32,418 nt of DNA from Desulfurococcales archaeon (GCA_027002875.1 JALWZC010000101.1:1-32418), one strand, 5' to 3'. Shown: positions 19,020 to 31,201, counted from the stretch's first letter. Numbers and translations: made by a program. Notes: a model not told the origin generated them from the letters alone.

Positions 19020-20192
19020 TTGGTCTATGAGTGGGCTCCACGCCTCTCTCCGAGTAGAGTTGTTGATTTAGTAATCGATGTTTACACGGAGCAGTATTCT
19101 CCACGCAGTATTTCTCGTTATAGACCCGAGGAGAGAATTGTTTTAATGCTTTGGGGGCCTCCGGGTGTTGGTAAGACTGATTCGGTAAAGAAGGCTTCAA
19201 AGACTATCGCCTCAATACTCGGTAGGGAGCTTGTCGAATGCAGTCAGATAACGCCTAAACTATTCGAGAAAATAATAGGTGATCCGTCTAAATACTTCGT
19301 ATTCTGCGATATCAAGCTCGAGAGATACGAGTACTCAGACCTAATAGGCCTTCCAAATTTCCGGGAAACAGGTGAGGGGATTCATTATACTGACTGGTAT
19401 CCTCCGAAATGGGTTGCAGTACTAGGATTGCCCGGTGTAGCGGGTATATTATTCTTTGATGAGCTGACTAATGCCGCGCCCGATGCCGTTAAGTGCGCTA
19501 TGGAGGCTATATATGAGAAGAAGCTCGGAGACATAGTGTTCAGCGATTACGTGATGATCATTGGGGCCGGGAACCCGCCGGAGCACAGTAGTGTTGCGAG
19601 AAACCTGCCAGAGCCATTAATGACTAGGCTAGCCCATCTATGGGTAGAGGTACCCGTTGAGGAGTGGATCAGGTGGGCTAGGGAGAATGATGTATCCCGT
19701 GAAGTGATCGAGTATATTAGTGAAAACCCCGGAAAACTCTACATACCATGGCTGAACGCCGTTCCCCGAACATGGAGTATTCTAGGTAAAGCATTGAGAT
19801 CCGAGAGGCTCAGTAAATGGAAGGAGACTCTTTCACAAGCACTCGTAGGTATAAACCCCTATGAGGAGAAGACGCTTAAGGAAGAAGTTTCAGAGGTTAT
19901 CGAGGCCGTAGACAGGTTATCATTAATGTTTTCAAGGGCTAGGAGCCTTAAAGCTAGGATCGAGGTTTTATGGAAGATCATAAAGATCGTTGTTGAGGAG
20001 ATGTCCCTAGAATACATGGAAGCCGCAATATCGAGGATATCCAGGATGCTTACCGAGACAGAGCAGTTATTTGACCTATTATACACCCTATACAGTGAGA
20101 GCTGTCTAGGAGGCGATGATGAGAAGTGCAGCTTACTACTAAGGTTTTCCGAGAAGATAATTAATGCAAACATCACGATCAAGGAATGGTGA
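19020..20192 (+). CDS. MoxR-type AAA+ ATPase
   Basis: A 390-residue cytosolic ATPase. Walker A is GPPGVGKT (46-53), Walker B is ILFFDEL with Asp about 147, a sensor-1-like Asn lies in IIGAGNPP, and an arginine-finger region follows in PEPLMTRLAHLWVEVP. The order and spacing fit the MoxR branch of AAA+ proteins, which remodel or load metal into partner proteins carrying a von Willebrand A domain. A C-terminal helical part (about 275-390) follows. It starts with TTG, 9-11 bases after GGGGTGAT. The next gene, a DUF2201 metallopeptidase/VWA protein, begins about 10 bases after its stop with its Shine-Dalgarno inside this stop codon, so the two are almost certainly coupled partners. Confidence 0.85.
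   Translation: MVYEWAPRLSPSRVVDLVIDVYTEQYSPRSISRYRPEERIVLMLWGPPGVGKTDSVKKASKTIASILGRELVECSQITPKLFEKIIGDPSKYFVFCDIKLERYEYSDLIGLPNFRETGEGIHYTDWYPPKWVAVLGLPGVAGILFFDELTNAAPDAVKCAMEAIYEKKLGDIVFSDYVMIIGAGNPPEHSSVARNLPEPLMTRLAHLWVEVPVEEWIRWARENDVSREVIEYISENPGKLYIPWLNAVPRTWSILGKALRSERLSKWKETLSQALVGINPYEEKTLKEEVSEVIEAVDRLSLMFSRARSLKARIEVLWKIIKIVVEEMSLEYMEAAISRISRMLTETEQLFDLLYTLYSESCLGGDDEKCSLLLRFSEKIINANITIKEW
20188..20191 (+). promoter_or_regulatory. Shine-Dalgarno GGTG over the AAA ATPase stop, sets the DUF2201 start
   Basis: GGTGA overlaps the TGA stop at 20190-20192 and lies 11 bases before TTG 20203. The earlier in-frame ATG at 20164 has no such element and would overlap the ATPase gene by 29 bases. 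Confidence 0.4.
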
Positions 20193-20202
20193 AACAGTAG
20201 AA

Positions 20203-21465
20203 TTGAAGCCTCAAACACAGTACTCCATAGATATAGCTTACTATTATCCTTCAAGGGTTAAGGGGAGGCTTTACAGGAAAATAGGGAAGACTATAAACCA
20301 TATCGTCAACAAGCTCCTACCCTACCCCAACATTAAGCTTGTCCTAAGAAACGTTTACTTCGAGGTTCGCGAAGTTAATAGCGCGTTTACGGATGGTAGT
20401 AGCATAGTGTTAAACCCTAGGATAGTTCTAGGATATGATCTAACAAGTTTATCCGAAATAATGATCCATGAATTCCTCCACATAGTTCTAGGCCACCCTA
20501 TAAGGGCTAGGAGGTATACTAGTAGAATACTCTACAATTTCGCGGCCGACATAATGGTTGACTCGATCGCTTCAAAGTATATTTATGGTAGGATGGTTCA
20601 CCACTTAAAAGTGCTTGAGAAGCTACTAATAGAAGCCCTCAAGAAAGAGGGGATGGATGAAAAAGCGGATATGATCAGGGATTTGATCGAGGACGTTGCT
20701 AGCGATCCTTCCGTTTGGAGTACTGAGAAAATATATGATTACCTCTTAAAGATCTTCGACGAGAAGGGGTTATTGGAGAAAATAGCAAGGATGATCGAGA
20801 AGATGATGGCTAAAGCTTTCCCCGAAATACATCCATGGGTAAAGGGTAGGCCCCACATGTATGGAGATATGTATGGTTTATTCACATTGATGCTGAAGTA
20901 TAGGGTTCTAGAGACGATCATTAATAGGTCCGGGGGTCCGGACTGGGTATCTATTCTAAGGAAACTACTCGTGGTTAAGAAGGGCAGGGGCCCGTATACA
21001 TCATGGAAGAGGCCTAACAAGAAACTACTCGTTCACGGAGCTTACTATCCGGTTAAAACAGGTATTATGCTGAACAGGCTCGTATTAGCCGTTGATGTTA
21101 GTGGTAGTATTAGGGATGAGGATTATAGGAAGATAGCATACGAGGCTGCAAGACTAATTAATAGTATAGGGGTCTACGAGCTATATATTATCCAGTTCGA
21201 CGCGGACATCGTACACGTATCCAGACACGTACAACCTGGTCTGTGGGATATTGTGAAAGCTATGGAGGTTAGGCACGGTATTGGGGGTACGAGGTTCGTA
21301 CCGGTATTTGACTATGTTGAGAAAGAGATCGGGGAGGTCGACGCGATAATATTCTTCACCGATGGAGAGGGAGAATACCCTCCCTACACGCCTGGGCATA
21401 GGACTGTATGGGTACTTATAAATAATAATGTGAATCCCCCCTTTGGTGAAGTAGTCTATGCCTAA
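20203..21465 (+). CDS. DUF2201 protein: zincin-like metallopeptidase fused to VWA domain
   Basis: About 420 residues from TTG 20203. The N-terminal domain has HEFLHIVLGH (first His about residue 89), an HExxHxxxGH-type zinc site as in the DUF2201 putative metallopeptidase domain (COG3864). A helical middle (about 120-270) follows. The C-terminal VWA-like domain has a complete metal-ion-dependent adhesion site: AVDVSGS (Asp about 298), the Thr of GGTRF, and FTDG (about 386). In this family a MoxR ATPase acts with the VWA protein, as here. Whether the peptidase site is active is unknown. The stop overlaps the ATG of the next gene by 8 bases. A longer start at ATG 20164 is possible. Confidence 0.85.
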   Translation: MKPQTQYSIDIAYYYPSRVKGRLYRKIGKTINHIVNKLLPYPNIKLVLRNVYFEVREVNSAFTDGSSIVLNPRIVLGYDLTSLSEIMIHEFLHIVLGHPIRARRYTSRILYNFAADIMVDSIASKYIYGRMVHHLKVLEKLLIEALKKEGMDEKADMIRDLIEDVASDPSVWSTEKIYDYLLKIFDEKGLLEKIARMIEKMMAKAFPEIHPWVKGRPHMYGDMYGLFTLMLKYRVLETIINRSGGPDWVSILRKLLVVKKGRGPYTSWKRPNKKLLVHGAYYPVKTGIMLNRLVLAVDVSGSIRDEDYRKIAYEAARLINSIGVYELYIIQFDADIVHVSRHVQPGLWDIVKAMEVRHGIGGTRFVPVFDYVEKEIGEVDAIIFFTDGEGEYPPYTPGHRTVWVLINNNVNPPFGEVVYA

Positions 21466-22351
21466 CGTGAATATTTCATGGGTAAAATTCATTATAGGCA
21501 GGGAAGGTCTCCGCGCGATATACGTACTAGAACCGTTAGGGAGCGAAAACTCTGAATGGGATGATGAAGAAAGGGTGGAGAAGCCATATATAGGATTAAT
21601 CGAGAATAATAGCCTCGTAGCGTACAGCCCGGTACCGGAAAAGTATAGGATTCTACTATACTCTGAAGGATTCAGGAGGATTGCCCGAGACTACATTGAT
21701 GGAAAAACTAGCTATATGGGTGTATTAAAGTATTTCAAGATCGATATCGAGGAGTTGAAGCGTTCATCAAGGATAAAATATCCCGAGAAGGATGAAGAAT
21801 TCATCGTACTCGATAACGCTTTACTCATGGTATTAGACGATGAAATGATCGCCGTCTTGGGCGGCGAGAAAACATTATACCTTAGAGCATCTAAAAGTGA
21901 GAAATACCTCGAATACATACCGGGAATACCTCCAAAGAAACCCGTCGAGGATGAAATCAGGACTAGCTACGAGCTCGTAGGCGTAATTAATAGTTACCCT
22001 AGGCCCAAGGTCGAGTATAAGGAGTTAATTGAGAAAACGGATACTATAAGCATAATCGAGTCCTATCCCATGGAATACTTACTATTATATACAGCGTTCA
22101 AAGACGGCGATACAGGCTATGTTAAGAAGACGATAAGCAGGCTGGGAAGCCCAGTACCGTACAGTGAGACGCTAACAACTACAGAGATCGAAGTACTAAA
22201 GAAGCTGATAAATAAGATGAAGGAGTACAATATAGGCGACTGGAAAACACTACAAGTAGCAACAGCAATCTCCATACTCTTCGACAGAGACCTAGATGAA
22301 GTCTACAACTACCTACTAGGCAAATATGTGAGGAAGGTAGAAGAATTTTAG
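21458..22351 (+). CDS. Third protein of the MoxR/DUF2201 operon, unknown function
   Basis: A 297-residue, acidic, soluble-looking protein with no signal peptide or membrane helix and no recognised motif. The first 160 residues alternate beta strands and helices; residues about 190-297 are helical, ending in a run of amphipathic helices. ATG 21458 lies 9 bases after GGTG and overlaps the DUF2201 gene by 8 bases, so it is read from the same message in near-fixed proportion. The context suggests it is the substrate, adaptor or third component of the AAA/VWA machine. That is inference from gene order only. Confidence 0.7.
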   Translation: MPNVNISWVKFIIGREGLRAIYVLEPLGSENSEWDDEERVEKPYIGLIENNSLVAYSPVPEKYRILLYSEGFRRIARDYIDGKTSYMGVLKYFKIDIEELKRSSRIKYPEKDEEFIVLDNALLMVLDDEMIAVLGGEKTLYLRASKSEKYLEYIPGIPPKKPVEDEIRTSYELVGVINSYPRPKVEYKELIEKTDTISIIESYPMEYLLLYTAFKDGDTGYVKKTISRLGSPVPYSETLTTTEIEVLKKLINKMKEYNIGDWKTLQVATAISILFDRDLDEVYNYLLGKYVRKVEEF

Positions 22352-22404
22352 ACATTTTTCAAAATTAATAAACGTGTTCATTATTTCAAATGTATTTCAG
22401 TGTT

Positions 22405-22421
22405 TTATAACTACGTTATAA
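22405..22421. promoter_or_regulatory. Inverted repeat upstream of the giant surface-protein gene
   Basis: TTATAAC-TAC-GTTATAA is a perfect 7-base inverted repeat with a 3-base centre, about 50 bases upstream of the presumed TATA box. It may be an operator for the 6.6-kb gene. The surrounding AT-rich DNA makes chance occurrence possible. Confidence 0.3.
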
Positions 22422-22468
22422 TAACCGATTACTTTCTTATAATGCAATTAAGTGTTCCAAAGTTAAGG

Positions 22469-22480
22469 TTAAATATAAGA
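22469..22480 (+). promoter_or_regulatory. Probable TATA box for the giant surface protein
   Basis: TTAAATATAAGA lies about 40-50 bases before the GTG at 22518. Transcription would start near 22497-22503, leaving a short leader that includes AAAGGTGGG as Shine-Dalgarno. It is assigned by position and base composition only. Confidence 0.35.
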
Positions 22481-22517
22481 TTTTTTAACACTATTTGGAT
22501 GGGAAAAAGGTGGGTCG

Positions 22518-25500
22518 GTGAGTACGTTGTCCCATATAAGGATACTCTCAATCATAATACTCGTAATGATGCTCTTAGCATATACTCCAACCATACCCCT
22601 CAGCTCGGCATCATTCAAGAGATCAAATTTAATGCCGATGCAAGAATACCCTATAGCAGTCGTAGGTAGCGATAATGCAGACGATATAGATAATGTCCTT
22701 GTAAACTATGGAGGCTATAGTAGTAGCGAAGTAGTACATTTCAATAAGTGGAGCGACCTATACGCAAACCTCTCAAACGGGGGCTTATTCAGGCTAGTCA
22801 TAATAAACGATTGGGGAGAAGACCCGGGCAGCGGGGACAAAGTCGTATCACTACTGAAAGCGCTTGACCTAAGAGATATACCACTACTCATACTAGATAC
22901 CGGGTACATTGATAACGGTGGAGGAGAAATACTAAAAGATTATGCCTCCGACGTAGCATCAGCAGGATATCCAGCCCCATCCGACTACACGCAAAACTAC
23001 CCATCGCCTAGCAGCGTACTAATAGATATTATAAATAATAGCCACCCAATATTCGATGGAATACCAGACCCCTACCAGGTTGCAACGAGCGATTCAAGCT
23101 ACTGTGACTACGCCCTCTACCACTCCTTCCAGGGACCAAGCGTTACACAGCTTGCATGGTTAAATGACACCTCCAATAATGAAGCCGGTATCGGTATAGC
23201 CGAATGGGTAGCACCCGGTGGCGAGCACTGGATATTCCATAGCTCCGGCGGTGTTAGTTACTGGATGAAGTATACTACTAGCGGAAGTGATGGACAGTAT
23301 AGTAGCGATCACAGGAACCTGTTATTAAACATAGTATCATATCTGATACAAACAGGGAACCCGCATCAACCACCAAAAGGCATACTAAAAGGACACGTAT
23401 ACGACAGTGAGACAAACGAGGCTATTCCGGATGCAGAGATATGTGCTGGCTCGGTATGTAACATGACTGATTCGACTGGCTACTATGAATTACACCTAGA
23501 ACAAGGGAACTATACGGTAAGCGTTAAGAAGCCCTCATACAAACCCTACACCTTCAACATAACTATAACAGGCGGAGAAACAACAATACGCGACATATAC
23601 TTGGAGAAAGTACCACATGCAGAAATAGTTGTTGCCGTAATAGGGGACTATCCAGACTATGAAGGTAAGGGAGAAGACTTACCATTATTCCTATCCTACT
23701 ACTACACGACACTATACTATCCAACACTGCAGGAATTCCTCGATCACAGGGACGATTATAACTGGTCAGTAATTGTTCTGAACTGGTTCGGGTATTCCGA
23801 CACAGCACCGACCATCGATGTATTCATAGACTTCCTTAAATGGGCTGACATGTATAATATACCGCTAGTGATCCTAGACACGTGGTATCTCGGATACCCG
23901 GCCGGATACTACATGTATACGCATAGAAGCGATATATCCTCTGCCGGATTCGCTGCGCCTAGTGATAGGTATGAAGGCTATACTTCGACGAGTAGCATAA
24001 CAGTGAATATATCGGCCACAAGCCACCCAATCTTCGTGAACCTCACAAGCGACTACTACAGGATCAGCGATTACACCGATTCATACTATGCATACTACAC
24101 ATCCTTCACAAGCAATGTATCAATACTAGCAAACATATCCATTAATGGAGAAGATAAAGGAATAGCAATTGCGGAGTGGAAAGCCAAGCAGAACGAGTCA
24201 TGGATCTTCATAAGCTATGCAACGAATATAAAGCACCACTACAATATAAGCGGTAGCTACGGCTTCTTCACCTCGGAGGCTAAACAAGTACTATTAAACG
24301 CTATACTCTACGCGGCATCGACTCATAAACCGCCAGTATATGTTAGGATTCATGGATACGTTAAAGAGCCGGACGGTACACCCATAGAGAACGCCATGAT
24401 CGAGGTTTCAAATGGGCCCGTAAACTATACGGATGCAAACGGCTACTACGTCGTTAAAGTAATAGCAGACTACGACTATAACCTAACCTATTCAAAGATC
24501 GGATACTATATGAATAGGACATCGATCCATGTAGGATACAGCAATGTAGAGATCAATGTAACACTAGTACCCAAGCCGCCGTCAATAGTGATCGTTGGAG
24601 ACCATGATACCGGTAGTGGTAAGAAAGACTTAAACCTAACACTAAGCCCGTGGTGGAATATACAGGAGGTAAGAGACTATAAGGAGCTGTGGGACGTAGT
24701 AAGGTATGAAGGCAATATCCTACTGGTAATATTCAACAAGTGGAGTGAAGGCTACTCAACGCCTCCGAGTAGCGATATAGTATATACGCTTCAGCTACTG
24801 GATGAAAACAATATATCCGCAATATTTCTAGCCGGCTACGGCGGCGGATACTACGGAGTATACCCACTATACAATGCTGCAACCGATGTAGAAGCCGCAG
24901 GCTACCCCGCACCCGACAACTACGACTACTGGTACTCGGTTAAGGGAGACAAGGTATGGTATAACGAGACTAATCCAGACCTAGTATTCTTCAAGAACAT
25001 AGCCCCTGACACCGATAATGCTTTCCACATACATAGAGACCTAGCAGGCTACGCCCCCTACCGCGGATTCAACTTCACCGATGAAACAGTAAAGGTTTAC
25101 GCCTGGTTTACCGACAAGGATCACAACCAGGTCTGGATGGGCCTAGTAAACTGGAATACTAGTGATGGAGACAAGTGGGTATTCCTAATCGGTGCTTCAA
25201 CTGATTACGTAAGGTATACAGAGGCGGGGGACGAGAACCAGTACAATCTCAAGATGCTAGTCCTACTAAACAATACGATCAACTACATCCTAGGACTAAC
25301 CCCGCCAACACTAACCGGTAAACTAGTTGGACAAGTAACGGATAAGGAAGGAAACCCGGTGCCTAATGCTAAGGTTGAAATAGTAGAGCTAGGCCTGGTC
25401 AACTATACCGACTCGAATGGAAACTACGTATTCAGCAATGTCTTCGCTGGAACTTATACATTGAAAGTATCAAAGTTCGGATACTACGATAACGTATCAT

Positions 25501-28500
25501 TCGTATCGATAGGATACGGGGTTACAGTCCACAACGTCGTGTTAAAGGAGGCACCCCCATCGGCAATAATAGTGGGTAAGGATGCGGACGATATAGTAAA
25601 CGCTATAAAGAACAACTATCCAGGTATGCCAGTCTACTGGGCCAAAGACTACGCCGAGATGCTGAGCCTAGTATGTAGCTACCCAAACAAGGTTGGAGTA
25701 GTAGTCATAGATGACTGGGGCGTCGAGCCTAGCAGTAGTGAAGTATTAAGGACTTTCAAGATACTAGACGCTTATAACATACCACTAGTACTCCTAGACA
25801 GCTATGGAAGCTACTATTACCATGGAGCATACTACCTCTACGAGTATAAGGACGAGGTTAAAGCCGCTGGATACCCCGCAGTAATAACTAGGACTACTTA
25901 TTGGGACTACAACATATCGATAAGCATGAATGCATCGACTCACCCAGTATTCAACGGTATAACACCCGACTTCGACAACGCCTTCTACGTCGGAGCGGAT
26001 ACTGGTGAATACACGGACTACGCAGCCTTAGAATTCGACCCTGACAGCGGAGTAGTAGTACTTGGAGACTTGTTAAGGGATGGTTCAAGGGTTGGCGGAG
26101 CAGTATTCGAGTGGAGTAGTCATGGAGGAGAGAAATGGATAATACTCTCATCAGCGGCCAGCTATTACTGGATGAAGTATAATCAGCCGGGAGGAGATAA
26201 CCAGTACTCGGCTAAGATGCTGAAACTACTCGTAAACTCCATCATCTACGCTAACTCCACTAGGGAGCCGACGCCAACACATGTAGTAATTAATATAACA
26301 GTGTTCGACAGCGTAACCCTAAACCCACTCGAGAACGCTGAGATAAAGGTTAACGAGACAGGGACCACTTACTACACAGGCGCGGATGGAAGAGTTGTAT
26401 TAGACCTCCCAATAATTTGTACAAACTACCACATAACCATTAGGAAGCCCGGATACGTTGCTAGGCAAATAGTTGTCGAAGGCTATATTAACAGGTCGAT
26501 CACGATCCTGCTCAATCAGTACGGAAACTCAACCATTACTGGAACAGTATATGATGCGGTCAGCGGCGAACCAATACCCGGAGCAATAGTAGAAGTACCC
26601 GGCGTAAACTCGACAATAACCGGGCCTAACGGTGAGTACTCGCTAAAGATACCCGCTGGTAGGTGGAACCTAACTATAAGAGCGCCTAAACACTTGGAGA
26701 AGACTATAGAGGTAGCCGCCCCGGCGAATCAGACAGTAACAATCAACGTATACCTTGAGAGGATGCCTGCCGCGATAGCAGTAGTAGGCGACATACAATA
26801 TAGCAGCGGCGAAAACGACTTAACAGACTTCCTAAAGAGTAAGGGGTTCAACGTTATAAGGTTCAAGACATGGCTAGACTTATACGTGAATCTTTCATGG
26901 TACAATATTAGCCTAGTAATACTCGACAACTGGGGATCAGAGCCGTCCGCCGAGAACGTTACAGCGTTCCTAAGACTACTCGACGAGAACAATATACCAT
27001 TAATAATACTCGACACATGGGACGGCTACTACAATGTCGGAGGATACTATCTCTACGAATACAAGGACGAGGTAGCAGCGGCCGGCTACCCAGCACCTGC
27101 TGAGAGAATACAGCACTACCCATCAGCGTCAAATGTTTTCGTAGAAGCACTATATCCGGAGCACCCGTTATTCAACGATATAAGCTACGACTTCAACAAC
27201 TCATTCTACATCGCTGCTAGGAGGGGAAGCTACGAATACGTAGACTACGCCGCTTACACCTTCAGACCGATGAAGAACCTATCCATACTAGCAGCACTAA
27301 TCGATACTGGAAACAACATTAACATGACTGCCGTAGCAGTATGGATCGCTCCAGGCGGTGAGAGATGGATATTCGTAAGCTACGGTTCATCGTACTGGGT
27401 AGGATACAACCATACAGGGTATGATAACGACTTCACCGATGCCGCTAAGCAGCTACTACTAAACGCGATAAACTACGCGTTAACGACTCGCGGAGTACTC
27501 AATGGAACACTAGAAATAACAGTGAAGGACGAGCTAAGCGGTGAACCAATTAGTGGCGCGGCCATAACTATTAAAGAGCTGGGAGTAACGACAGCTACAG
27601 ATAGCGGAGGCAATGCGCTACTAAACCTATACCCCGGTATTTGGACTATACTGGTAAACAAGTCGGGCTACTTCAATGCTTCAAGAATAATAGTAGTAGT
27701 AGAGGGATTAACCAGCCATGTAACAATACTCCTAGCACCCACTGCTAGCCTAGAAATCCACGTCGTTGATGAAAAGACGGGGGCGCCAGTTAAGGACGCG
27801 GTAGTATCAATAGAGGGCATCGGGAACTACACCACGGGTAGCGATGGCAGGGTCGTAGTAGGCCTAGTACCAGCCGGTACACTGAATATAACTATTAAAC
27901 ACCCATTATACTACACGACGATATTCCTAGTAAGCATTGAACCACACAAGCTAAACAATATAACGCTAAGGATCAAGAAGCTACCACCAATAGTAATCAT
28001 ACTCGGAGATAGCGAAGACCATGACCTCGAGAAATACGTTAAGAGCCTGGGATACTACGTCGAAGTATACGATAACCTATCAGCTATAATTGACAGGATA
28101 AACACCGGCGTACCTGTTAGAGTGGTAATCCTCAACTATATTAATGATATACCGGATCAGACCGTATTCGATAACTTCATACAACTAGTTGACGAGAAGA
28201 ACATTTCACTAATAATACTAGACTCTTATGCATACTACACGGCAACCGGTGGATACATATTCTACCATTACCGGAACGACTTATTATCGATGGGATACGC
28301 CGCTCCATCAACGAGGGAGATAGGCTATAAGGGAATCTATGGAGATAACAGCGTTGCAAAGTACAGGCTTGTAACTCCGATATACAACTTCACCTATGAC
28401 CTGAACTATAAGGAGGCGCCACTAGTAGCGAGCGATGCAGGCTATGCAAACTATGCATATTACGAGTTCCCATCCAGCGTATTAATAGATGAAGTAGCAA

Positions 28501-29099
28501 AGCTAATCGTGAATGGCGAGGATCTAGGGACGATTGTAGCAGTGTGGTATGCTCCAGGCGGTGAGAAATGGATCTTTATGGGTGCGTGGTCGACTTACTG
28601 GAACCGCTACGTAACAGGGAACGGCGACGGCCCCTTCAGTGTTAAAGCTAAGGACTTACTAGCTAGGGCAATATTCTATGCAGGCATACACAAGCCGAGA
28701 ATAGACGTGTTGAACGTAACGATAGTAGGTATGGGTAAAATACTCAGTACGGGCACCGAGTTCAGAATATCAGGTTACGCCTACATTAGATCGGGTAATG
28801 AGAGGATACCATTAGCAAACTCGACGATCGCAGTATATGCTCTCAGTAAACCAGTACTACTCGGAACACTGCCTACAGACGAAAACGGCTTCTTCAACGG
28901 GACAATCACCGTACCAGCAATATCAAAAGGAGAGCTACACAGTATAGGTATAGGCGACCCAGCTAACCAGTATGAACCAACAATAGTAACACCACAAGGC
29001 TACAAGGTATGGGTACTGCCGGCGCCGGAGCCGCCGATCACCCCGATCGTATTACTAGCCATAATACTACTATTCATACTGTTAAAGAAGAGGAAGTAA
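22518..29099 (+). CDS. Giant modular secreted protein: six Rossmann-like modules alternating with carboxypeptidase-regulatory-like domains
   Basis: 2193 residues. A signal peptide (about 1-32, hydrophobic core RILSIIILVMMLLAY) and a C-terminal helix with KKRK tail (2172-2193) place about 2100 residues outside the cell. Six modules of about 230 residues begin near 44, 367, 690, 1014, 1418 and 1825. Each runs VVGD-like strand, [ND]xW, NIPLxILDT, GYPAP, DYAxY, APGGExWIF, SYW, and a final LLNAINYA helix. This suggests a Rossmann/flavodoxin-like (GATase1/ThuA-like) fold without an evident catalytic Cys. Seven beta domains of carboxypeptidase-regulatory type (GTVYD-x-x-x-G-x-PIPGA, T-x-x-x-GxY) start near 288, 605, 931, 1255, 1338, 1659 and 1742. 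A beta-sandwich (2063-2165) precedes the anchor. It is rich in Tyr and N-glycosylation sequons. GTG 22518 or TTG 22527 starts it. The role, perhaps adhesion or glycan binding, is unknown. Confidence 0.8.
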   Translation: MSTLSHIRILSIIILVMMLLAYTPTIPLSSASFKRSNLMPMQEYPIAVVGSDNADDIDNVLVNYGGYSSSEVVHFNKWSDLYANLSNGGLFRLVIINDWGEDPGSGDKVVSLLKALDLRDIPLLILDTGYIDNGGGEILKDYASDVASAGYPAPSDYTQNYPSPSSVLIDIINNSHPIFDGIPDPYQVATSDSSYCDYALYHSFQGPSVTQLAWLNDTSNNEAGIGIAEWVAPGGEHWIFHSSGGVSYWMKYTTSGSDGQYSSDHRNLLLNIVSYLIQTGNPHQPPKGILKGHVYDSETNEAIPDAEICAGSVCNMTDSTGYYELHLEQGNYTVSVKKPSYKPYTFNITITGGETTIRDIYLEKVPHAEIVVAVIGDYPDYEGKGEDLPLFLSYYYTTLYYPTLQEFLDHRDDYNWSVIVLNWFGYSDTAPTIDVFIDFLKWADMYNIPLVILDTWYLGYPAGYYMYTHRSDISSAGFAAPSDRYEGYTSTSSITVNISATSHPIFVNLTSDYYRISDYTDSYYAYYTSFTSNVSILANISINGEDKGIAIAEWKAKQNESWIFISYATNIKHHYNISGSYGFFTSEAKQVLLNAILYAASTHKPPVYVRIHGYVKEPDGTPIENAMIEVSNGPVNYTDANGYYVVKVIADYDYNLTYSKIGYYMNRTSIHVGYSNVEINVTLVPKPPSIVIVGDHDTGSGKKDLNLTLSPWWNIQEVRDYKELWDVVRYEGNILLVIFNKWSEGYSTPPSSDIVYTLQLLDENNISAIFLAGYGGGYYGVYPLYNAATDVEAAGYPAPDNYDYWYSVKGDKVWYNETNPDLVFFKNIAPDTDNAFHIHRDLAGYAPYRGFNFTDETVKVYAWFTDKDHNQVWMGLVNWNTSDGDKWVFLIGASTDYVRYTEAGDENQYNLKMLVLLNNTINYILGLTPPTLTGKLVGQVTDKEGNPVPNAKVEIVELGLVNYTDSNGNYVFSNVFAGTYTLKVSKFGYYDNVSFVSIGYGVTVHNVVLKEAPPSAIIVGKDADDIVNAIKNNYPGMPVYWAKDYAEMLSLVCSYPNKVGVVVIDDWGVEPSSSEVLRTFKILDAYNIPLVLLDSYGSYYYHGAYYLYEYKDEVKAAGYPAVITRTTYWDYNISISMNASTHPVFNGITPDFDNAFYVGADTGEYTDYAALEFDPDSGVVVLGDLLRDGSRVGGAVFEWSSHGGEKWIILSSAASYYWMKYNQPGGDNQYSAKMLKLLVNSIIYANSTREPTPTHVVINITVFDSVTLNPLENAEIKVNETGTTYYTGADGRVVLDLPIICTNYHITIRKPGYVARQIVVEGYINRSITILLNQYGNSTITGTVYDAVSGEPIPGAIVEVPGVNSTITGPNGEYSLKIPAGRWNLTIRAPKHLEKTIEVAAPANQTVTINVYLERMPAAIAVVGDIQYSSGENDLTDFLKSKGFNVIRFKTWLDLYVNLSWYNISLVILDNWGSEPSAENVTAFLRLLDENNIPLIILDTWDGYYNVGGYYLYEYKDEVAAAGYPAPAERIQHYPSASNVFVEALYPEHPLFNDISYDFNNSFYIAARRGSYEYVDYAAYTFRPMKNLSILAALIDTGNNINMTAVAVWIAPGGERWIFVSYGSSYWVGYNHTGYDNDFTDAAKQLLLNAINYALTTRGVLNGTLEITVKDELSGEPISGAAITIKELGVTTATDSGGNALLNLYPGIWTILVNKSGYFNASRIIVVVEGLTSHVTILLAPTASLEIHVVDEKTGAPVKDAVVSIEGIGNYTTGSDGRVVVGLVPAGTLNITIKHPLYYTTIFLVSIEPHKLNNITLRIKKLPPIVIILGDSEDHDLEKYVKSLGYYVEVYDNLSAIIDRINTGVPVRVVILNYINDIPDQTVFDNFIQLVDEKNISLIILDSYAYYTATGGYIFYHYRNDLLSMGYAAPSTREIGYKGIYGDNSVAKYRLVTPIYNFTYDLNYKEAPLVASDAGYANYAYYEFPSSVLIDEVAKLIVNGEDLGTIVAVWYAPGGEKWIFMGAWSTYWNRYVTGNGDGPFSVKAKDLLARAIFYAGIHKPRIDVLNVTIVGMGKILSTGTEFRISGYAYIRSGNERIPLANSTIAVYALSKPVLLGTLPTDENGFFNGTITVPAISKGELHSIGIGDPANQYEPTIVTPQGYKVWVLPAPEPPITPIVLLAIILLFILLKKRK

Positions 29100-29131
29100 T
29101 AATAATATACGTGTTAAATCCCAGGCTTTTT

Positions 29132-31201
29132 TCACCTACTGATCTCTTCTATATACCTCGTTATAGCTTCAAGCCCAGTTTTTATCGACGATAGTAGTTC
29201 TTGTATCAGTTTAATAGTTACCCTAAACCTCGGGGATTCTTCTTCGTTATACTTATTTCCTAGTTCATCACTATACTCCGCTATTTCCCCAAGAATCCTT
29301 ATTAACCCGTTAACCCTTCTCTCCTCGCTTATACTCTTCAATAACTCCAGTGTTTTCTCAGCTATGCTGTATTCTCTCCACCTACCCGCTTCCACTAGGA
29401 ATTGCATCGAGTCTTTTATTACTTGTATCACCGTATTTATCACGTAGTCGTTTATGATCGGTGTTGACTGGGTGAGATTATATGCTGAAACAAGGCTTTT
29501 CAATGCTTTAGAGTCGTAGTATCCCTTAATACCTTCTTTTACAAGGTAGTAGTCTATGCTCTTCTTCTTATCGTATTGTTTAGCCATGTTCTTAAGTAAT
29601 TGGTGGTAGTAATTTATCGCTGATTCGAAGAATTCGATGCTGCCCGTAATATTGCCGTTTAGTACTTCGTGGAATCCCCGGAACTTCATGCTTCTAGCCC
29701 TGTTTAACAGTGATCTAAGGGTGTAGCCTCTCAGCTCATAATACTCGGCTGATTCGCCGTACTCCCTACTAGCCTCCAATAACTTATTGCTGGAAACGTA
29801 TAAGCCTGCACGGGCTTCGTGGAGCAGGCTTCGTGCAACGTTTCGAAGATGTGGGCTTAGTATTTCCTCGGCTTTAACACTAGCTTCCTCGAGGATCCTT
29901 ACTGCTTCCTCGACGTTTTTATCAGCTACTAAGAGGCACTCTGCCCGGCTGATCAGTGATTTAACCCTTAAAGCCTCTGCTTTCCCACGGTACTCGCCTC
30001 CCAGTGAATCATACTTGTGGGCTGCGGCTAGCCATGACTTATAAGCTGTGCAGGGCTTATTCCTCCTAACCTCTATCTCGGCCATATACTCGTGTCTCAA
30101 TGCTTCAGCTATTTCCGCCTCTCTGATTAATCCCGCTGATTTATAGTAGCCTATTAACTCGTCGAGCCTAGCAATTGCTTCTTCGAACCTGTTTTTCTGG
30201 GCTAGGCTTCGGGCTAGGCTTAACAAGTATTTTGCATTAGCACGGTGAGCCTCCCTAGCCATGTTCGGAGACTCCCGGGCAACGCTGACAGCCCAGTGGT
30301 AGCATAGTTTAGCAGCTTCGAAGTCCAGGTTCTGGTAAAAATAATCTCCCAGCGTCTCATAGAAGTAGAATTGGAAGTATTGTCGGTACTCATGCATGCT
30401 TTTCGGGATGTTCCCGATCCTCTCGAGAGATCTGATCACTTCTAACCCGAGGGCTTCATATGCTAGGCTCTCCAACAATTTCCCGGACTTGATATTCTCT
30501 TGAGCCTGCTTCTTCGCCTTGATCACTAGGTCGAATAAAGCCCTACCCGGTGCGCGGGCTTCAACCCTTAAACCATGCGATAAAACCCTATTAATTACTT
30601 CATCTGCTAGATCATGGTCTAAACCAATCATCCCTGTAACTTCTTCCAGTAAGTCTTCAAGCCTCCTAATCGGTGTAACAGCCATGATCTTCCCGAAGAA
30701 AGAGGATAGCCCGTTTACAACTACTTCTCTACTGGGTGGATAATACCTGCCTTCAGCATTGTCTACTAGGCCTATTAAGCCTAGTAGTTCAAGCATCCTC
30801 TCAACGAGTTTTTCATGGGTGCTCTTAACCCTATGAATACCTCCGTAGAAAGCCCTATTCTTAATGAGCTCAGCTATCTCGCCAGCATTTAGGCCCGGCT
30901 TCTCGTTTACAATCCTAATAATAGGCTCGACGACGTGGAAGAAAGCCTTTAATCCACGATTAGTAACCGTGTAGAGGTTCTTACCGCCCTTATAGAATTT
31001 CTTCAAAACACCCCGATTAACAAGCTTCTCAACGAGGCTTGGATTAATAGATTTAAACACCACTGGCCTAACAAGGTCTCTAATAGTTGAAGCCCTTAAC
31101 TCTTTAACAATAAGTTCCAGGTTATTGAGGAGTATTTCAAGCTCAATATTGTTCAGGGAGAAGTAAACAATCCAATCAACACGTTTACCATGAACACTCA
31201 A
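29132..31201 (-). CDS. Winged-helix plus TPR-like repeat protein
   Basis: About 689 residues. The N-terminal 150 residues hold two winged-helix-like units (near 20-85 with IRDLVRPVVFKSINPSLVEKL and a LYTVTNRG wing; near 90-150 with LNAGEIAELI and GLIGLVDN), typical of archaeal transcription regulators. Residues about 270-600 are helix pairs of TPR type, e.g. YETLGDYFYQNLDFEAAKLC and LARSLAQKNRFEEAIARLDE, expected for protein-protein contacts. There is no membrane segment. A signal-responsive DNA-binding regulator is the best guess. A longer frame starts at GTG 31213, but TTG 31201 lies 9 bases after AGGGTG. It converges on the giant surface gene with only 32 bases between stops. A palindromic GTTTAAAC (31254-31261) upstream may be its TATA element. 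Confidence 0.7.
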   Translation of the reverse strand: MSVHGKRVDWIVYFSLNNIELEILLNNLELIVKELRASTIRDLVRPVVFKSINPSLVEKLVNRGVLKKFYKGGKNLYTVTNRGLKAFFHVVEPIIRIVNEKPGLNAGEIAELIKNRAFYGGIHRVKSTHEKLVERMLELLGLIGLVDNAEGRYYPPSREVVVNGLSSFFGKIMAVTPIRRLEDLLEEVTGMIGLDHDLADEVINRVLSHGLRVEARAPGRALFDLVIKAKKQAQENIKSGKLLESLAYEALGLEVIRSLERIGNIPKSMHEYRQYFQFYFYETLGDYFYQNLDFEAAKLCYHWAVSVARESPNMAREAHRANAKYLLSLARSLAQKNRFEEAIARLDELIGYYKSAGLIREAEIAEALRHEYMAEIEVRRNKPCTAYKSWLAAAHKYDSLGGEYRGKAEALRVKSLISRAECLLVADKNVEEAVRILEEASVKAEEILSPHLRNVARSLLHEARAGLYVSSNKLLEASREYGESAEYYELRGYTLRSLLNRARSMKFRGFHEVLNGNITGSIEFFESAINYYHQLLKNMAKQYDKKKSIDYYLVKEGIKGYYDSKALKSLVSAYNLTQSTPIINDYVINTVIQVIKDSMQFLVEAGRWREYSIAEKTLELLKSISEERRVNGLIRILGEIAEYSDELGNKYNEEESPRFRVTIKLIQELLSSIKTGLEAITRYIEEISR

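Follow-up and report, generated by a model that had tools for sequence, protein, structure and literature searches.

The window analysed here, a stretch of 32,418 nucleotides from a Desulfurococcales archaeon (GCA_027002875.1, JALWZC010000101.1:1-32418), carries on its plus strand, at positions 22518-29099, an intact open reading frame with a GTG start that encodes a protein of 2193 residues (P0001, the giant protein). This protein consists, in order, of a signal peptide, six homologous modules of about 240 residues with seven carboxypeptidase-regulatory-like (CPR) domains between them, a C-terminal beta domain and a tail made of a proline-rich, a transmembrane and a basic part (Table 1). The module represents a real and conserved domain family, hitherto undescribed, that is arranged here in a new way. 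Judging from sequence comparisons, it is the accessory domain of large surface S8 proteases in Desulfurococcales and relatives; in the giant protein, it forms a six-fold array without a protease. On balance, and by analogy with known domains, the giant protein is probably a non-catalytic, multivalent cell-surface binding protein whose ligand would most likely be a glycan or a glycosylated S-layer.

The six-module repeat stands far above chance level. When each module was compared with a hidden Markov model (HMM) of the other five, scores ranged from 125.6 to 228.7 bits, against 11.0 for the best of 1200 shuffles. Furthermore, blastp with a fixed search space found all 15 of the 15 module pairs (E 1e-3 to 1e-41), the weakest true pair scoring 30.0 bits, whereas none of 1200 shuffled sequences exceeded 27.3 bits. 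Together with the intact reading frame, these results confirm the original prediction of one 2193-residue protein with six repeated modules; the motifs quoted for it hold as a consensus but not strictly, IPLxILD and GYPAP each being present in three of the six modules. The modules (237-245 residues) are 21-43% identical to one another. Pfam finds seven CarboxypepD_reg stretches (PF13620/PF13715, E 9e-73), placed singly in the first three linkers and in pairs in the last two, as had been described. The count of seven beta domains is right for the CPR domains, but an eighth, different beta domain precedes the anchor (residues ~2061-2160). Hydropathy reveals just two hydrophobic segments, one at the N terminus, where a signal peptide had been recognized, and the other at residues ~2169-2192. 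The protein is acidic and has 54 N-glycosylation sequons.

Two further module-bearing proteins are encoded by the same genome, on contigs C128 (complete) and C87 (truncated by the contig end), so that the genome has one full S8 surface protease of this type and a second, incomplete one. The protein of C128 (P0002, 1683 residues) is a subtilisin-like S8 protease with a PF00082 domain, and Tk-subtilisin is the solved structure closest to this domain. It also contains CPR domains, a type-A module and a diverged module B, as well as Ig-like domains and a coiled coil, and has a hydrophobic segment at its C terminus. A profile search of archaeal genomes mapped the range of the module: it was found in 10 of the 61 relatives searched and in six of 398 genomes of the phylum, all six belonging to the same order as the window. 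Nearly all other module loci encode an S8 protease of the P0002 kind (orthologs in G001, G006, G026, G047, G051 and others), some contig-truncated loci not being assignable. The named loci come from metagenome-assembled genomes of Desulfurococcales, Acidilobaceae and Sulfolobales, and the module was not found in either of the two complete genomes of genus g15, from the same family. Like the giant protein, the S8 surface proteases have a signal peptide, a C-terminal membrane segment and the module (25-33% identity) between CPR domains. However, they carry an S8 catalytic domain, only two modules (one of type A, the other the diverged B) and, ahead of the anchor, a coiled coil, whereas the giant protein has six A-type modules, no coiled coil and no PF00082 match in the Pfam scan. 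In a tree, module B forms a separate clade and the giant-protein modules interleave with the protease A modules, which argues for a common origin of the latter two. Hence, the beads had been rightly seen as an extracellular, C-terminally anchored chain, but the module is not specific to an unusual stalk, since it is common to S8 surface proteases of the same order.

An ortholog with four modules before the contig end was found in a second genus (G002, contig JALVIT010000086). Its modules are 49-59% identical to those at the same positions in the window (Table 1), whereas modules at different positions share 21-42%, and they also group by position in the tree. This one-to-one correspondence shows that the array is older than the split between the two genera and that its individual modules have been kept distinct. 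Recent repeat amplification or an assembly artefact is ruled out by the low identity between modules and by the same correspondence. In the congener G001, both genes that flank the giant gene are present at L087 (G001:C267, 3238-3252) with 14 bp between the aligned blocks, so that the site is cleanly empty and lacks the whole 6.8 kb gene segment. The gene next to the giant gene on its downstream side adjoins pheS in G002, and the ortholog therefore lies at a different locus there. Since the site is empty in one genome and the locus differs in the other, the giant gene has been gained, lost or moved. A foreign origin by composition was rejected, GC and GC3 being similar to those of the neighbouring genes.

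Scans of the giant protein with the Pfam and NCBIfam models left the modules uncovered. The 22 modules of the family, scanned singly against Pfam, gave scattered weak matches only (Ank_4, DUF4960), and assignment to a known domain by HMM was dropped for this reason. None of the 22 matched a DUF4350 or ThuA profile at E values up to 1, the lone DUF4960 match (E 0.0065) concerning one module. A profile search of the module against the PDB returned Rossmann or response-regulator matches at chance level only, and profile searches for a described adhesin or S-layer family gave no placement, leaving the module without a curated family. For module 5, AlphaFold2 (AF2), run on a 22-row alignment with homologs gathered from public archaeal genomes, predicts a core in which strands and helices alternate, after which come additional strands and one last helix (mean pLDDT 93.7, pTM 0.93). 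Foldseek against solved structures matched this model to GATase1-like proteins (E 8e-7 to 9e-4, probability about 1.0 for many GATase1 structures), including STM3548, STM1381, the oligosaccharyltransferase subunit OST48/Wbp1, PabA-type glutaminases, the N-terminal domain of IFT52 and Agd3 (structure 6nwz, E 4e-4). These predictions support a class I glutamine-amidotransferase-like (GATase1) fold with a Rossmann-like core. The GATase1 and Rossmann parts of the fold proposed earlier are thus upheld, whereas DUF4350 and ThuA are undetected by sequence. A viral origin was considered and set aside: among viral models (BFVD), the best fold match is A0A5C1K4Z4, a 565-residue protein of unnamed function (E 1e-6, TM 0.57); the remaining matches are GATases or receivers.

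In class I glutamine amidotransferases, the Cys nucleophile, which goes with His and Glu, comes after strand 4. The equivalent position in the modules, placed by strand order and not by coordinate superposition, reads DDDADDDDQDGADACDGGDDDD across the 22 modules, i.e. D, A, G, Q or C, with D in most. In the full module alignment, no Cys, His, Glu, Asp, Ser or Thr is invariant; the invariant or near-invariant columns are P60, L82, P111, F136, Y161, W201 and N233. The modules share core fold and strand order with class I amidotransferases (PabA, GuaA, CTP synthase) and with STM3548/STM1381, but they are extracellular, have extra C-terminal strands and lack the Cys-His-Glu triad. Because the Cys-equivalent position varies and none of the potential catalytic residues is fully conserved, amidotransferase chemistry is very unlikely, and the earlier remark that the module has no obvious nucleophile proves correct.

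Non-catalytic domains of this fold are known. Residues 141-364 of Agd3 form a GATase1-like domain without the Cys-His-Glu triad that has conserved surface aromatics and binds the polysaccharide galactosaminogalactan (PMC7229062), and GIFT domains have been proposed to bind sugars (PMC7226087). With the Agd3 domain (CBM87 of Aspergillus fumigatus, PDB 6NWZ), the modules have in common a triad-less GATase1-like alpha/beta/alpha architecture, conserved aromatics and their place in a larger secreted protein. However, there is no detectable sequence likeness, and the Agd3 domain is single-copy, carried by a deacetylase and fungal or bacterial. GIFT domains (GldG, IFT52, OST48/Wbp1), which are non-catalytic and GATase1-like, with sugar binding proposed for some, match at the level of the fold alone: the DDOST, IFT52 and GldG models are not among the Pfam matches of the 22 modules, and GIFT domains are not in tandem on the cell surface. 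Moreover, in the ten giant-protein modules, aromatic residues are most concentrated in the stretch that follows strand 4 (32% F/W/Y versus 15% elsewhere), and many aromatic columns are near-invariant. Because of the Agd3 and GIFT precedents and of this aromatic-rich stretch, we propose that the giant protein may be a multivalent binder and favour, by analogy, the earlier suggestion that its modules bind rather than cut. The occurrence of the module in S8 proteases with coiled-coil C termini, the one-to-one orthology of the individual modules and the 54 sequons of the acidic chain also speak for this reading.

The signal peptide would direct export of the giant protein, and the membrane helix of the C-terminal tail would keep it at the cell surface; this tail may be processed by the archaeosortase of the genome. 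The six GATase1-like modules, having lost the amidotransferase triad or never had it, would be strung on rod-forming CPR beta domains, and each would present a site rich in aromatic residues where its central sheet ends. Jointly, they would bind avidly to a repetitive surface ligand, for which a glycan or a heavily glycosylated S-layer is likeliest; both ligand and avidity are what we infer. In the S8 surface proteases, the module would dock or position the protease in the surface coat, and the giant protein could be viewed as the docking unit minus the protease. Several points weigh against such a binding role. The Foldseek likeness is at fold level only (TM about 0.5, 10% identity), and the Agd3 match is known for the 6nwz entry rather than for a given region of Agd3. 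In addition, aromatic enrichment is lower both in module 1 (1/15 positions) and in the modules of the proteases, some of the invariant aromatics may belong to the core, and the modules may have some other enzymatic chemistry.

Exosortase and archaeosortase signals comprise a proline-rich motif, a hydrophobic helix and a basic end. All three recur in the tail LPAPEPPITPIVLLAIILLFILLKKRK. Three further giant secreted proteins encoded by the genome end in almost this tail, giving four near-identical tails in one genome, and it is also found on G001 and G010 proteins. The three other giants (L007, 821-6814, 1997 residues; L008, 1922-5815, 1297 residues; L009, 1889-5188, 1099 residues) are largely without Pfam matches save Ig-like and CPR pieces. 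The genome encodes an archaeosortase of 547 residues (L068, G000:C4, 1432-3075) that adjoins a MoxR-type AAA ATPase gene. It scores 56.5 bits with PF09721 and 34.5 bits with TIGR04178 (cut-off 23), has a CSG motif with downstream Arg and His, and is a candidate processor of these PAPEPP tails. An archaeosortase above the Pfam cut-off is present in five of six tail-bearing genomes versus nine of 35 without the tail, kinship not being corrected for; in G012 (83% complete), the tail is present and no archaeosortase was detected. We infer that the tail is processed by an archaeosortase. Hence, the C-terminal anchor described earlier does exist as a hydrophobic segment, but it looks archaeosortase-type rather than a plain transmembrane helix only. 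In G010, a short contig-truncated protein (L034, G010:C98) has a weak module match, a PVPEPL tail and no Pfam match.

The alternative that survives best, although we consider it unlikely, is that the giant protein is a structural part of an S-layer or stalk, its beads being spacer or lattice elements that make protein-protein contacts and have no glycan ligand. The giant length, the CPR and other beta domains, the anchor and the tail in common with three giant secreted proteins would suit such a role. Furthermore, the related proteases are similar in plan to STABLE, a subtilisin-family protease on the coiled-coil S-layer stalk of Staphylothermus (PMC5744192); STABLE/tetrabrachion of Staphylothermus marinus is a precedent and an analogy for these proteases only and does not imply homology of the giant protein. 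However, a major S-layer protein would not be expected to have so patchy a spread, with absence from most relatives and from the congener. Among the SlaA/SlaB and S-layer profiles, none passed its cut-off in the Pfam and NCBIfam scans of the giant protein: the model NF052345 (SlaA/SlaB, Kustd1514 test) reached 100.6 bits against a cut-off of 1400, with the CPR segments alone aligned. Besides, an AF2 model of two beads has confident individual domains but a low overall pTM (0.65), so a rigid rod is unsupported.

It is improbable that the giant protein is an adhesin or contact protein, facing other cells or mineral or organic surfaces, or a phage-facing decoy, its presence or absence within the genus resulting from selection by viruses or partners. 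The clean empty site in the congener, the different locus in G002 and a giant, modular, anchored plan typical of adhesins are consistent with this, but no adhesin profile matched and the modules are conserved one-to-one across genera instead of being rapidly shuffled. More doubtful still is an enzymatic role of the modules through a non-canonical active site, for instance one with an Asp, Ser or Thr after strand 4 as nucleophile: GATase1-like folds are mostly enzymatic and the elbow position is D in most giant-protein modules (five of six here), with T or S next in many, but this position changes to A, G, Q or C within the family and no D, E, H, S, T or C is invariant in the full alignment.

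Multivalent binding thus stays our preferred reading. Repeat proteins usually string beta-sandwiches, and enzyme folds as binding beads are rare. These data define a domain family that had not been described, has a clear host range and is tied to Desulfurococcales surface proteases, and they provide a testable case of a dead amidotransferase fold as an archaeal surface-binding module, as CBM87 in fungi. They also indicate that a crenarchaeal lineage, in which the anchoring of giant surface proteins has been little studied, has an archaeosortase tail of the PEP type. More tentatively, the module might be a new GATase1-like carbohydrate- or S-layer-binding family that one hyperthermophilic archaeal order invented or adopted for protease docking. 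Later tandem expansion would have given a multivalent, lectin-like protein of six beads without a protease, sorted to the surface by its PEP-type archaeosortase tail.

Table 1. Features of the giant protein gene and its surroundings (window positions)
Feature	Positions	Strand	Evidence
Putative N-terminal Sec-type signal peptide, residues 1-~32	22518..22613	+	Windows within residues 1-30 are hydrophobic; lipobox Cys absent
Module 1, residues 44-285	22647..23372	+	Leave-one-out HMM 176 bits; 50% identity to G002 module 1
CPR domain 1, residues 286-369	23373..23624	+	CarboxypepD_reg PF13620
Module 2, residues 370-606	23625..24335	+	Leave-one-out HMM 139 bits; 59% identity to G002 module 2
CPR domain 2, residues 607-687	24336..24578	+	PF13620
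Module 3, residues 688-932, on average most divergent	24579..25313	+	Leave-one-out HMM 126 bits; 49% identity to G002 module 3
CPR domain 3, residues 933-1013	25314..25556	+	PF13620/PF13715
Module 4, residues 1014-1255	25557..26282	+	Leave-one-out HMM 198 bits; 56% identity to G002 module 4
CPR domains 4 and 5, residues 1256-1416	26283..26765	+	PF13620, best stretch 1339-1414
Module 5, residues 1417-1660, chosen for structure prediction	26766..27497	+	Leave-one-out HMM 229 bits; AF2 pLDDT 93.7, pTM 0.93
CPR domains 6 and 7, residues 1661-1823	27498..27986	+	PF13620, Fn3_arc
Module 6, residues 1824-2060	27987..28697	+	Leave-one-out HMM 137 bits
Juxtamembrane beta domain, residues ~2061-2160	28698..28997	+	35-44% identity to tail regions of giant proteins on C57, C82 and C109 (own-genome protein search)
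C-terminal tail LPAPEPPITPIVLLAIILLFILLKKRK with a proline-rich motif, a hydrophobic helix and a basic end	29016..29096	+	Candidate archaeosortase signal or membrane anchor; near-identical on four giant proteins
Segment missing from congener G001	22351..29136	not assigned	blastn of window against G001 C267; flanking genes 14 bp apart

A 13-nucleotide near-direct repeat, TAATAWACGTGTT, lies on both sides of the gene (22366-22378 and 29103-29115); 0.02 such repeats are expected by chance in the window, but it was noticed post hoc, and none was seen at the empty site of the congener. Directly upstream (19020-22351), an overlapping operon encodes a MoxR-like ATPase, a VWA-type metallopeptidase-like protein and a 297-residue protein, the last of which was found, among eight genomes, only in the congener.

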